The notes beneath the pieces are model-generated. The model had not been told where the DNA came from. It saw only the letters and a program-made list of their open reading frames with translations, and made no database searches. A stretch of DNA of 64,000 nt from NCBI RefSeq assembly GCF_900113185.1, contig NZ_FOZD01000001.1, forward strand, positions 1,550,001 through 1,614,000, in the 5' to 3' direction. The stretch comes from Agromyces sp. CF514 (GTDB taxonomy: Bacteria > Actinomycetota > Actinomycetes > Actinomycetales > Microbacteriaceae). Of the stretch, positions 54,555 to 58,471 are shown one piece after another (positions within the stretch are counted from its first letter, which is position 1; the number at the start of each line of letters is the position of its first letter). The position numbers and the translations under genes were made by a program.

Positions 54555-55487
54555 ATGACCGTCACCGAGACCCGCGCCATGCTCGCGACCGATGCCGGCC
54601 ACGGGGCCTCCGATCGCGGCTCGGGCGCCGTTCGCAAGCGCCGCTACACCGAGGACCAGGTCCCGCTCGGGCGCGTGCTGCTGCGCATGCTCGCCGGGCT
54701 CGTCGTGCTCGCGATCTTCGTGCTGCCGTACACGATCATGTTCTTCGGCTCCGTCAAGACGAAGGCGCAGATCCGGTCGGTCGACCCGACGTACTTCCCC
54801 CAGGAATGGCACTGGGAGAACTACATCACCATGTGGTCGACCCCTGAGACGCCGCTCGTGCAGAACCTCGTCTCGACGATCGTGATCGCCGTCTTCGCGA
54901 CGCTGCTCGTGCTGCTCGTCGCGATGCCCGCGGCGTACTACACGGCCAGGTACCTGTTCCCGGGGCGCATGCTGTTCCTCTTCCTCGTGATCGTCACGCA
55001 GATGCTGCAGCCCGCGGTGCTCACCTCCGGCCTGTTCCGCCAGTTCGTGGCCCTCGACCTCGTCGACACGTGGGCGGCGATGATCCTCATCAACGCGGCG
55101 TTCAACCTCTCGTTCGCCGTCTGGATCATGCACTCGTTCTTCGCCGGCGTGCCGAAGGAGGTCGACGAGGCCGCGCAGATCGACGGCGCCGGGCGGCTCA
55201 CGGTGCTCTTCCGCATCCAGCTGCCGCTCGTGTGGCCCGGCATCGTGACGGCGATCGTGTTCACCTTCGTCGCCTGCTGGAACGAGTTCGCCGCCTCGCT
55301 CGTGATCCTCTCGACCGCGGGCAACCAGCCCCTCTCGGTCGCGCTCACGAAGTTCGTCGGCCAGTACGAGACCTCGTGGCACTACGTGTTCGGCGTCTCG
55401 GTCGTGGCGATCATCCCGGTGGTGGTGCTCTTCATGCTCATCGAGAAGCGCCTGGTCGGCGGCCTCACCGCGGGCAGCGTCAAGTAG
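54555..55487 (+). CDS. Sugar ABC transporter permease (MalG-like, second importer)
   Basis: 310 residues with six helices and EAA loop PKEVDEAAQIDGAGRLTVLF. It completes the membrane channel with the preceding permease. It is the last gene of the unit; GGATGC-type hairpins follow. Missing ATPase implies use of a shared MsiK-like protein. Confidence 0.93.
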   Translation: MTVTETRAMLATDAGHGASDRGSGAVRKRRYTEDQVPLGRVLLRMLAGLVVLAIFVLPYTIMFFGSVKTKAQIRSVDPTYFPQEWHWENYITMWSTPETPLVQNLVSTIVIAVFATLLVLLVAMPAAYYTARYLFPGRMLFLFLVIVTQMLQPAVLTSGLFRQFVALDLVDTWAAMILINAAFNLSFAVWIMHSFFAGVPKEVDEAAQIDGAGRLTVLFRIQLPLVWPGIVTAIVFTFVACWNEFAASLVILSTAGNQPLSVALTKFVGQYETSWHYVFGVSVVAIIPVVVLFMLIEKRLVGGLTAGSVK

Positions 55488-55522
55488 GTTCCGGATGCCG
55501 CATTGCGGCCTCGATCGGGTGA

Positions 55523-55553
55523 CGGATGCCGCGGCGGCCCGCCGCGGCATCCG
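55523..55553 (+). terminator. Hairpin after the second importer operon
   Basis: CGGATGCCGCGGCGG (55523-55537) faces its exact complement (55539-55553) across one base. Two further partial GGATGCCGC/GCGGCATCC copies lie at 55494-55502 and 55577-55586. It is placed 35 bases after the last permease gene and before the convergent DUF559 gene. Confidence 0.6.
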
Positions 55554-55643
55554 CTCGCCCGTCGACGGCCCGCCGCCGCGGCATCCGTCGCCGCCCGCCG
55601 CCCGTCGCCGGCCCGCACAACGCCCGCGCTGCAGGCCATCGCA

Positions 55644-55684
55644 CGCTGTTCAGGCCGATGTCGCTCGAAACGGCCTGAGCAGCG
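55644..55684. repeat. Flanking hairpin repeat, copy at the 3' end of the DUF559 gene
   Basis: CGCTGTTCAGGCCG (55644-55657) pairs with CGGCCTGAGCAGCG (55671-55684), 14 bp with one G-U wobble and a 13-base loop. The stop codon of the DUF559 gene lies inside the left arm. The stem sequence matches the hairpin at the other end of the gene. Confidence 0.7.
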
Positions 55685-56564
55685 ACCGTCCGCCTGCTGC
55701 GCGGCCGTCGCGACCGAGGTGCAGCCCGATCGCCATCGCAGACCGAACCTCGAGTTCGACGCCGGCCCATTCGGCGAGCACCTGCTGATAGTCGAAGCGC
55801 AGCACCGTGAAGCCCATCAGCGCGAGGCGTCGATCGTGGGCGATGTCGCGGCGGCGGCTCGCGGCATCCCGGTGGAACCCGTAGCCGTCGAGCTGGATGA
55901 CGAGGTGCGATCCGATGAGACCGTCCACCGCGTGTCCGGCCAGCCGGACCTGCTGTCGCACCGGGATCCCGATGCTCCTGAGTCGGCTGAACGTGATCGA
56001 TTCGAGACCGGAGTCCGAGAGCTGTGAGGCGCAATCCCGCACGCGTCGCGCTGCCGCGTGACGGAGGGGGAGTTGCGCGAGGTACCCGGGGTCGACATTC
56101 CTGGTCCTCAGCGCCGACTCCCACGTGGCGAGGGCGTGCTCGAACGGCCGGCACGCGGCGATGTGCACGAGCGCATCGACGGGCGGCTCGAGGAGCTCGA
56201 AGCGGCCTGACGCGATGGGGCCTGCATTCCAGTGGATGCGCGCACCGGCAGCGTCGAATCTCGACGCGCCATGGGCCACGGCGAGATGCGGTCGGTCATC
56301 GTCGATGGTCCAGAGCCCGTGCATGCGGGCCGCCGTGATGCAGGCGACTCGGCCACCGACAAGCGCCGCGGCGCGGAGCATCGACGGTGCCGACGAGGTC
56401 GCGAGCCAGACGCGCCGGAGCCGCTCGACGGATCCTCCGGCCACCGCCTCGCGGATCGCGTATCTCGTGTATCCCGCACCCAGGGCCTGATCGACGTGCC
56501 TGATTCCGCCCTCGGCGTCGAGCCATTCGGTGAGCGATCTGCGCATCGACCGAGTGTCGTGCAT
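55650..56564 (-). CDS. DUF559 (Vsr-like fold) protein with AbiEi-type N-terminal domain
   Basis: 304 residues. The N-terminal half resembles the winged-helix region of type IV antitoxins (AbiEi-like): EGGIRHVDQALGAGYTRYAI, then LRRVWLAT. The C-terminal DUF559 domain has the endonuclease-fold pattern LVIQLDGYGFH, RRRDIAHDRRLALMGFTVLRF (Asp, His, Arg and Asp of the Vsr/PD-(D/E)XK type). Such genes are scattered in actinobacterial genomes with unknown role. No partner toxin gene is adjacent. Matching hairpin repeats lie at both ends, suggesting a discrete unit. Confidence 0.75.
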   Translation of the reverse strand: MHDTRSMRRSLTEWLDAEGGIRHVDQALGAGYTRYAIREAVAGGSVERLRRVWLATSSAPSMLRAAALVGGRVACITAARMHGLWTIDDDRPHLAVAHGASRFDAAGARIHWNAGPIASGRFELLEPPVDALVHIAACRPFEHALATWESALRTRNVDPGYLAQLPLRHAAARRVRDCASQLSDSGLESITFSRLRSIGIPVRQQVRLAGHAVDGLIGSHLVIQLDGYGFHRDAASRRRDIAHDRRLALMGFTVLRFDYQQVLAEWAGVELEVRSAMAIGLHLGRDGRAAGGRSLLRPFRATSA

Positions 56565-56674
56565 GACGAGGGCAGTGCCATTCGAGACCGGCCTGGCAGG
56601 AACAACCTCAGCGACACCCGATGGCGTGGAGGACGAGTCGCCGGTCTCGGGGCGGTGCGTCGGTCAGGCGTTCG

Positions 56675-56774
56675 CGCGCTGCTCAGGCTGATTCGGGCCG
56701 TTCAAGCCTGAGCAGCGCGTTCGTGCCTGAGCAGCGCGTAATGCAGCGCTTGCGTGCGTGCGTGAGCAGCGCAC
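56675..56774. repeat. Flanking hairpin and direct repeats, upstream of the DUF559 gene
   Basis: CGCGCTGCTCAGGC (56675-56688) pairs exactly with GCCTGAGCAGCGCG (56706-56719). The 15-mer GCCTGAGCAGCGCGT occurs at 56706-56720 and again at 56725-56739, and a degenerate copy lies at 56760-56774. The same motif occurs at the other end of the DUF559 gene (55644-55684). The 251-base gap here holds no convincing ORF. Confidence 0.75.
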
Positions 56775-56815
56775 GAGTGCCTGCGAACCGGATGTCGCGG
56801 GCGAGCGTCGCGCGG

Positions 56816-58471
56816 TCACTCGACCCAGGGCACCCCGCCGACCTTGCGGTACGAGACGCCGAGCGCGTCGAGGTGGGTGCCGAGCGCGGCGAGCCGGGCC
56901 TGGAACGACGCCTCGTCGCGCGCGCCGTCGGCCGGCGCCGGCGACCACGCGATCTCGGCGATCGCCGTGATGCGCGGGAAGACCATGAACTCCAGGTCGG
57001 GCGCCGTGCTGATGGTCTCGGTCCAGACGGGCGCCTCGATGCCGAGGATGTCGGACTCGGCGAGACCCGGCACGATGGCGGTGGGCTCCCAGGCGTAGGC
57101 CTCCTCGAGCGTGCTCGGGCCGTCGGCCCAGAGCTGTCCGAGCTTCGTGCCGAGGGGGCCGTCGGGGTCGTCGGGGTACTTCATGTCGAGGTAGGCGACG
57201 TCGGCGGGGGAGAGGATCACGCTGCCGCCCTGCTCGACGAACGAGGTGGTGAGCGCGGCGGCGTCGTCGCGAGGCGTCACGAAGTCCCAGTACTGGCCGA
57301 TCGTGTCGGCCGGCAGGTCGCGCGAGGCGCCCATCTCGTGCCAGCCGATGACGGTCTTGCCGGTCGCGGCGCCCGCCGCCGTGATGCGGCGCACGAGGTC
57401 GAGGTAGTCGGCCTCCGAGGTGGCGAGCGACTCGTCGCCGCCGACGTGCAGCCACGGGCCGGGCGTGAGGTCGGCGACCTCGCCGAGCACGTCGGCGAGG
57501 AACCGGTCGGTCGCCTCGGCCCGCTCGGGCGAGGCGCAGAGCGACGAGAAGCCGACCTCGATGCCCTCGTAGGGCTTCGGCGCGATGCCTTCGCAGTTGA
57601 GTTCGGGGTAGGCGCTGAGCGCCGCGTTCGTGTGCCCGGGCAGGTCGACCTCCGGCACGACGGTCACGAACCGCTCGGCCGCGTACTCGACGATGCGCCG
57701 GTAGTCGTCCTTCGTGTAGAAGCCGCCGCCGTCGCCACCGGTCGAGGTCGAGGCGCCGATGCCCGTGAGCTCGGGCCACGCGTCGATCTGCAGGCGCCAG
57801 CCCTGGTCGTCGGTGAGGTGCAGGTGCAGCACGTTGAGCTTCAGCAGTGCGATGCGGTCGATGTGGTCGAGCACGTCCTGCACCGGGAAGAAGTGCCGCG
57901 CCACGTCGAGCATCGAGCCGCGGTAGGCGAAGCGCGGTGCATCGGAGACGGATGCCGCGGGCACCGTCCATCCGTCGGCCGGCGCCTTCTCGGCATCCGT
58001 TCGCTCGATCTCGGCCGGCAGCAGCTGCCGCAGCGACTGGGTGGCCCAGAACAGGCCGGCGGGCGTGTCGGCTGCGAGCCGCACGCCGTCGGAGCCCGAC
58101 TCGAGCGTGTACCCCTCGGCCGCGCCGTCGGGTGCCTCGCCCGCGGCGACCACGAACGCGATGTCGGATGCCGCGCCCTCGGCCGAGTCGGTGCCGTCGA
58201 CGACGGGCAGCGGGTAGCCCGTCGACGTGCGCGCGAGCGCGGCGAACGTCTCCGCGACGCCTGCCGCACCCTCGCCGGACGCGACGAGGCGCGTGGTCTC
58301 GTCGAGTTCGAAGGGCGCCCGGTCGGGGTAGTCGGCGCTCACGGGCGCGGGCACGATGCCGGTCATGGGTTCTCCGTTCTGCGCCGGTGCGGTGCACGCG
58401 GTGAGGGGTGTCGCGAGGACGAGGGCGAGGGCGATCGCGGTCGGGTGTGCGATGCGGCTGCGTCGGGGCAT
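56816..58471 (-). CDS. Secreted GH20 beta-N-acetylhexosaminidase (lipoprotein)
   Basis: 551 residues. Lipoprotein signal with LTAC (Cys26), a GH20 N-terminal beta domain (about 35-160), then the catalytic barrel starting [18 protein letters not shown]. The catalytic pair Asp346-Glu347 sits in HVGGDES, with [11 protein letters not shown] and [13 protein letters not shown] around the site. It removes terminal GlcNAc or GalNAc from glycans outside the cell, supplying both importers in this window. GAGG lies 4 bases upstream of the ATG. Confidence 0.93.

Follow-up and report, generated by a model that had tools for sequence, protein, structure and literature searches.

A DUF559 gene of Agromyces between two four-box palindromes of a kind dispersed in Agromyces genomes

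The window, a stretch of 64,000 nucleotides from Agromyces sp. CF514 (genome G000 of our set), contains a gene that is enclosed by two copies of a 67-bp palindrome. As modelled, the encoded protein has a DNA-binding module of the AbiEi type with a nuclease domain of the Vsr/EDxHD type behind it. In the order, homologues often lie between palindromes of other spelling. Palindromes of the TCAGG and GGAGG classes (named after the box spelling) are scattered through Agromyces genomes, for the most part in intergenic DNA, with a concentration in those that carry the orthologous gene. On balance, we consider it probable, if by no means certain, that the gene provides the enzyme for a nuclease-palindrome partnership that propagates slowly and is independent of RAYT. 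The features of the locus are as follows.

55631 to 55697, no strand: downstream palindrome, GCAGG-N14-TCAGG-N19-CCTGA-N14-CCTGC (pattern search over the inner 41 bp with 1 mismatch, reading, and box scan)
55650 to 56564, minus strand: gene of the AbiEi-DUF559 (Vsr-like) protein, 304 aa, stop codon within a box of the downstream palindrome
55719 to 56012, minus strand: Vsr/EDxHD-type nuclease-like domain, residues 185-282 (model versus 3r3p I-Bth0305I, Pfam DUF559)
56022 to 56546, minus strand: AbiEi-like module, residues 7-181, predicted to bind DNA (model versus 6y8q, PADLOC AbiEi)
56664 to 56730, no strand: upstream palindrome, TCAGG-N14-TCAGG-N19-CCTGA-N14-CCTGA (exact match), ending 100 bp before the start codon
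56761 to 56784, no strand: possible extra decayed single arm, CGTGA-N14-CCTGC (read from the sequence)

The repeat unit is a palindrome of four 5-bp boxes in the arrangement box-14-box-19-box-14-box, with identical spacing in both copies. Spelled as CAGGC/GCCTG, all eight boxes are exact across both palindromes (box scan, L012, 40/40), and the stop codon (55650-55652) lies within the inner box of the downstream copy. The original prediction had placed matching hairpin repeats on both sides of the gene, and this is borne out: GCCTGAGCAGCG occurs exactly at 55673, 56677 (minus strand), 56706 and 56725 and with one mismatch at 55644 (minus strand) and 56760, and its 6 matches compare with a mean of 1.37 in shuffled sequence, 6 being reached in 1 of 100 shuffles. 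The perfect 14-mer arm pair expected 5' of the gene (56675-56688 and 56725-56738) and the two exact copies of the 15-mer GCCTGAGCAGCGCGT (by reading) were likewise recovered, and the loops between the paired 12-mers are indeed equal, with 17 nt at either end of the gene. The 14-bp hairpin described for the 3' end stands insofar as the stop codon lies in an arm, but the 12-mer pair carries one mismatch there. All of these repeats exist; they are, however, parts of the longer four-box palindrome rather than a hairpin unit of their own. The 12-mer was rejected as repeat unit: its inner pair alone occurs at 2 places of the genome, or at 4 if up to 3 mismatches are allowed (control 1), compared with 7 for the four-box pattern.

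The spacers within the arms pair more than shuffled sequence (z of 3.5, 3.0 and 3.7); pairing of the 19-bp centre does not exceed that of shuffles (z of 1.0, -1.6 and -0.5). Among copies within a genome, conservation falls, in this order, on TCAGGA, on CG and GC inside the spacer and on TCAGGACG. A T-run terminator was looked for and not found. A further palindrome pair, GGATGCCGCGGCGG...CCGCCGCGGCATCC at 55523-55592, adjoins the downstream palindrome, and GGATGCC/GGCATCC hairpins resembling this pair are seen in several Agromyces flanks.

For the 304-aa protein, Pfam reports DUF559 (E = 9.2e-7) and, below the respective family cut-offs, MTES_1575 REase (1.4e-6) and AbiEi_4 (0.014). The protein also matches PADLOC AbiEi (E = 2.9e-4) and the EDxHD/Vsr nuclease fold (hmmsearch, E = 8.4e-5). 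In the predicted structure (mean pLDDT 89.1, pTM 0.83), residues 7-181 align with the AbiEi antitoxin 6y8q (VIA-align Z = 9.1, 174 residues), and residues 183-282 with the homing endonuclease I-Bth0305I (3r3p, Z = 13.8, 96 residues), the best structural match, as well as with NGO0050 (Z = 12.9); from residue 181 onwards the model aligns with Vsr (Z = 10.6). The Vsr-like DUF559 domain and the antitoxin-like part read from the translation are thereby recovered, and E188, D214, Q224, D226, D240 and D244 are invariant in an alignment of 36 sequences. We note that likeness of the model to the AbiEi and Vsr-type folds is, taken alone, no proof of function. Conservation of the boxes, lack of pairing in the centre and the AbiEi fold suggest that the protein would recognise the double-stranded palindrome rather than a hairpin.

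No HUH/Y1 tyrosine transposase was found in the protein, Pfam giving DUF559, MTES_1575 and AbiEi only. The immediate neighbours of the gene encode a sugar ABC permease (BPD_transp_1) and a GH20 hexosaminidase, and no AbiEii (DUF1814) toxin gene is among them. With respect to a mobile intron, Rfam returned only sub-threshold matches over 55400-57000; the gene sits between two genes.

Reading of the flanks of 12 relatives suggested paired palindromes of other spelling at most of them. In the flank test, the upstream flank of each gene was compared with its own downstream flank by best local alignment, and flanks of different loci served as cross pairs. The Agromyces-centred set consists of 102 loci (97 from Agromyces and 5 from other families). 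Here, own flanks score 47.7 on average, compared with 23.3 (sd 4.4) for cross pairs, and rank first in 42 loci. A score above 37 is reached by 51 of the 102 loci but by only 6 of 223 control genes taken from 400 kb of genome G012 (mean 25.2, maximum 149); the 32 other genes of the window average 23.8, with a maximum of 34. The 223-gene control was also used for a named set (80 loci, 73 of them usable outside Agromyces duplicates), because near-identical species inflate the cross pairs of that set (99th percentile 104); 52 of the 73 loci score above 37, and 32 rank first. Among the 37 loci from outside the family, 18 score above 31, the 99th percentile of their own cross pairs, and 20 rank first; 5 of the 37 are also counted among the 102. 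Paired flanks are therefore far more frequent than around control genes. Absence of the repeats around homologues would speak against a link, and 51 of 102, 21 of 73 and 19 of 37 loci, respectively, fail the test. Flank alignment also overlooks some loci with palindromes visible on both sides; L023, for example, ranks 102 of 102.

The four-box design itself was sought by a scan for four equal boxes with a period of 17-20 and a threshold of 36/40. It is found at 80 of 177 loci (24 of the 102 Agromyces-centred loci and 56 of the 75 others) and at none of the 223 control genes, whose maximum is 35. An earlier control, which used neighbouring loci of the list as mismatched pairs, was flawed because such loci share spellings (maximum 40), and was replaced by the 223 other genes. 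The box period is 18 in 42 loci and 19 in 38. In the 80 four-box loci, the upstream copy ends a median of 119.5 bp before the start codon and the downstream copy begins a median of 25.5 bp past the stop codon, which it overlaps in 11 cases. Spellings among the loci include TCAGG, GGAGG, GCAGG, CGAGG, ACAGG, GTAGG, TTCGG, GTCGG and TGCGG. Several other loci, which the scan does not count, combine, by reading, a gene-specific outer motif with a common inner motif (CGACACGCCG or close to it). Compared with L079, L024 (G020:C8:832821-833501) is missing its N-terminal part and some 220 bp of upstream sequence, and is a decaying gene.

The exact TCAGG four-box pattern is present in 143 copies in 20 of 60 Agromyces genomes (reversed control pattern: 1 copy), and the GGAGG pattern in 104 copies in 17 of the 60 (reversed control: 0). 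The orthologous gene, here called clade A (at least 48% identity, one tree group), is found in 12 genomes, which hold 7, 10, 9, 4, 24, 10, 21, 19, 3, 11, 6 and 0 TCAGG copies; the 48 genomes without it hold 19 in total. At least 3 TCAGG copies occur in 11 of the 12 clade-A genomes versus 1 of the 48 others (Fisher p = 4e-10, Mann-Whitney p = 1e-8, kinship being ignored and copies at the gene being counted), and at least 3 GGAGG copies in 7 of 12 versus 5 of 48 (p = 0.001, kinship being ignored). The clade-A genome without TCAGG copies, G003, has palindromes of the GGAGG class at its gene and holds 12 GGAGG copies. Repeats unlinked to DUF559 genes would likewise count against a partnership; a link is seen across the genomes, with exceptions in G060 (8 TCAGG copies without a clade-A gene) and in G024, G053, G065, G071 and G007 (11, 10, 9, 5 and 3 GGAGG copies without a clade-A gene).

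Of 40 placed sites, among which two pairs are orthologous, 36 are intergenic under a simple ORF rule; 15 lie between convergent, 19 between co-directional and 2 between divergent genes. No DUF559 homologue was found within 1.0-1.5 kb of 54 dispersed-copy loci. The genome of the window also holds 14 GGAGG four-box palindromes (L297-L310), and no DUF559 homologue was found for these beside the copies or among the collected loci; we offer the reading that they are remnants of a lost gene or are served by another protein. A search for the CGAGG class gave matches in 12 of 60 genomes, with the class consensus, by reading, in G055 (4), G017 (3), G049 (1) and G050 (1); the matches of the other 8 genomes were set aside as coding-like, also by reading.

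The gene and its palindromes differ in their stability. In 11 of 12 Agromyces loci, the clade-A gene adjoins the same GH20 hexosaminidase and sugar ABC permease genes, and the same neighbourhood is found in Leifsonia sp. Root4 and Glaciibacter flavus. The sole Agromyces clade-A gene away from it, L014 (G009:C1:312161-313006), belongs to a genome with 21 TCAGG copies and has possibly been relocated. At the constant locus, the boxes vary between TCAGG, GCAGG and GGAGG, and the stop codon lies in a CCTGA box at L012, L062, L063 and L064. In a comparison of the sister species G012 and G053 (88.3% identity in 294 kb of alignment), two G053 palindromes of a CAGGA class are missing at the orthologous places in G012 and one GGAGG palindrome is common to both; palindromes are thus gained or lost while the gene stays at its locus. 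The two empty sites give no clear target duplication of the kind typical of insertion sequences and MITEs, their junctions not being sharp enough. In the 400-kb comparison, the two TCAGG sites of G012 have flanks that are unalignable or alignable on one side only. The CAGGA-class palindrome lies at G053:C4:693331 and 777768 (L280-L296 region), and a gene for it was not found beside the copies or among the collected loci of that genome. Of the six TCAGG sites of the window's genome that are not at the gene, three are shared with G063, two with G066 and one with both. The protein has no homologue among 72,556 plasmid records (E of 1e-10) or 50,697 phage records (E of 1e-6).

The partnership would work like RAYT/REPIN with an unrelated enzyme. 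One monomer may bind each 24-bp arm, so that a pair of nuclease domains would come together above the unconserved 19-bp centre, where they would cut or nick; arms that face each other across such a centre are the layout expected if two monomers place their nuclease domains over it. Break repair or replication might occasionally copy the palindrome to a new place, such that the palindromes would be non-autonomous elements whose population changes slowly and is served by a nuclease inherited vertically. The upstream palindrome is perhaps also the operator of the gene, as in AbiEi. We know of no route by which a nuclease of this type would copy a palindrome, which counts against the partnership. 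Extended to the order, the proposal is more tentative and may well not hold: AbiEi-Vsr nucleases, an undescribed gene class, would sit at fixed loci between two 24-19-24 palindromic targets of their own, propagating and pruning a genomic target population whose spelling changes jointly with them, that is, REPIN-like dynamics evolved independently with an enzyme of the homing-endonuclease type.

The available parts of PMC3116915 and PMC8049555 describe RAYT genes as flanked by palindromic repeats that are also dispersed extragenically as inverted doublets, the enzyme being single-copy and vertically inherited, and genomes with the enzyme holding more copies. The Agromyces gene resembles these in its flanking repeats (window and homologues versus controls, as above), in the dispersed, extragenic, inverted doublets and in its vertical inheritance (synteny, no plasmid match). 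It differs in its enzyme, which is AbiEi plus Vsr-like rather than an HUH tyrosine transposase, in the four-box 67-bp unit with its 24-bp arms and fixed centre, and in having tens rather than hundreds of copies. The absence of an HUH transposase therefore excludes the locus from RAYT/REPIN. The predicted REP/RAYT-like pairing is supported in part: homologues are bracketed far above control genes, if not at every locus, and copy number tracks the orthologous gene, with the exceptions given above. TIRYTs and TIRtrons, in the sections available of PMC3733652, are RAYT-like genes between long terminal inverted repeats, some forming dispersed families, and CGTC REPs have no known transposase there; an enzyme gene between inverted repeats, some of them dispersed, is common to TIRYTs and our locus, but TIRYTs are tyrosine transposases and the tags differ from the palindromes found here. 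As excerpted, PMC7319586 reports that the DNA bound by AbiEi-family proteins consists of 23-bp inverted repeats ahead of their own gene, AbiEi binding two of these 3 bp apart, and that the Rv2827c promoter has two inverted-repeat pairs with 13-bp gaps. The fold of the N-terminal two thirds of our protein and the length of the 24-bp palindrome arm are similar, whereas the additional nuclease domain, the lack of an adjoining toxin gene and the downstream and dispersed palindromes are not; without an AbiEii toxin beside it, the gene is therefore not part of an AbiE operon. I-Bth0305I, which dimerises on a target of nearly 60 bp (PMC3943268, in part), shares the nuclease fold, as does Vsr (Z scores above); our gene differs in not being found in an intron and in having target copies that flank it and are dispersed. 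The MTES_1575 Vsr-type REase domain, the same domain family, is named in the accessible text of PMC3710099 within a large HEPN multidomain protein, a setting unlike ours. None of the families compared is matched fully in its defining features; the layout itself resembles RAYT/REPIN. Titles and abstract openings of the open-licence papers listed for DUF559, MTES_1575, REPIN/RAYT and Microbacteriaceae repeats do not describe a nuclease-palindrome association.

The arrangement of a gene between palindromes that are also scattered in the chromosome has hitherto been known from an unrelated family of enzymes. If the partnership is true, the coupling of dispersed palindromes to a single enzyme gene has originated at least twice, each time with an unrelated enzyme, and the REPIN way of life is therefore not peculiar to HUH transposases. 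It would also predict a target for DUF559/MTES_1575, a domain that is widespread but of unknown function, and explain where one class of intergenic palindromes of actinobacteria comes from. Since a gene's flanks often reveal the spelling of its target, binding and cleavage lend themselves to direct testing, and the many pairs of spelling and protein offer natural data for specificity change of a DNA-binding module.

The main rival is a host regulator or chromosome-organising nuclease, which we regard as unlikely but of real weight. The dispersed palindromes would then be functional sites (operators, programmed nicking, anchoring), the copies at the gene would autoregulate it, and turnover would be ordinary regulon evolution. 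AbiEi antitoxins repress their own genes by binding to inverted repeats (PMC7319586, in the part available), and copy numbers are low, with a maximum of 24. At one site common to five genomes, including G020, which has no clade-A gene, the arms are 93-100% identical, the centres 42-89%, and the flanks fall below the arms in 7 of 7 pairs; this conservation of the arms but not of the centre hints at selection on the site itself, which also weighs against the partnership. The spacers of other shared sites are, however, only 46-86% identical, the spelling differs between congeners at one locus, autoregulation needs no downstream copy at the stop codon, and divergent genes enclose no more than 2 of 40 sites, compared with 15 for convergent genes.

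A homing-type selfish gene, for which a single palindrome is the empty target and cutting followed by repair from the occupied allele leaves palindrome-gene-palindrome, the scattered copies being off-target or former sites, appears improbable to us. The best structural match is a homing endonuclease, two full palindromes enclose the gene, and L014 is placed away from the locus of its orthologues; but one locus is kept by 11 of 12 clade-A genes, both flanking targets are intact after insertion, unlike a homing site, and Rfam gives only sub-threshold matches at the locus. We think it very improbable that the gene is AbiE-like, acting in defence or as part of a toxin-antitoxin pair, with operators of its own: the AbiEi fold would fit, but the neighbours are a permease and a hexosaminidase rather than an AbiEii toxin, and the gene stays at fixed loci while the palindromes are dispersed. 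The suggested role in genome defence is also unsupported by the analyses run. Hardly any credence is due to ordinary bidirectional terminators or mRNA-end hairpins that are alike by chance. Such elements would be intergenic, often between convergent genes, and palindromic, as the sites are, but the four-box spacing is fixed, the box spelling is common to both flanks and absent in controls, the centre is unpaired beyond shuffles, and a T-run was not found. We retain the nuclease-palindrome partnership as the preferred reading.

Individual loci show further arrangements. At L352, L356 and L369 (G153 and G139, a family of lower GC content), the palindromes on either side of the gene hardly differ (in L352, 64 of 64 bp agree), which suggests recent copying or conversion, judging by identity. 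In the genome that carries L352, a 400-kb sample of 1.94 Mb, taken outside this gene, has 2 palindromes spelled near those of L352 (control 0). In G066:C1:1077156-1077580 (L315, L318), two TCAGG palindromes take turns with two GGAGG palindromes inside 425 bp, as tandem duplication of a mixed unit might leave them.
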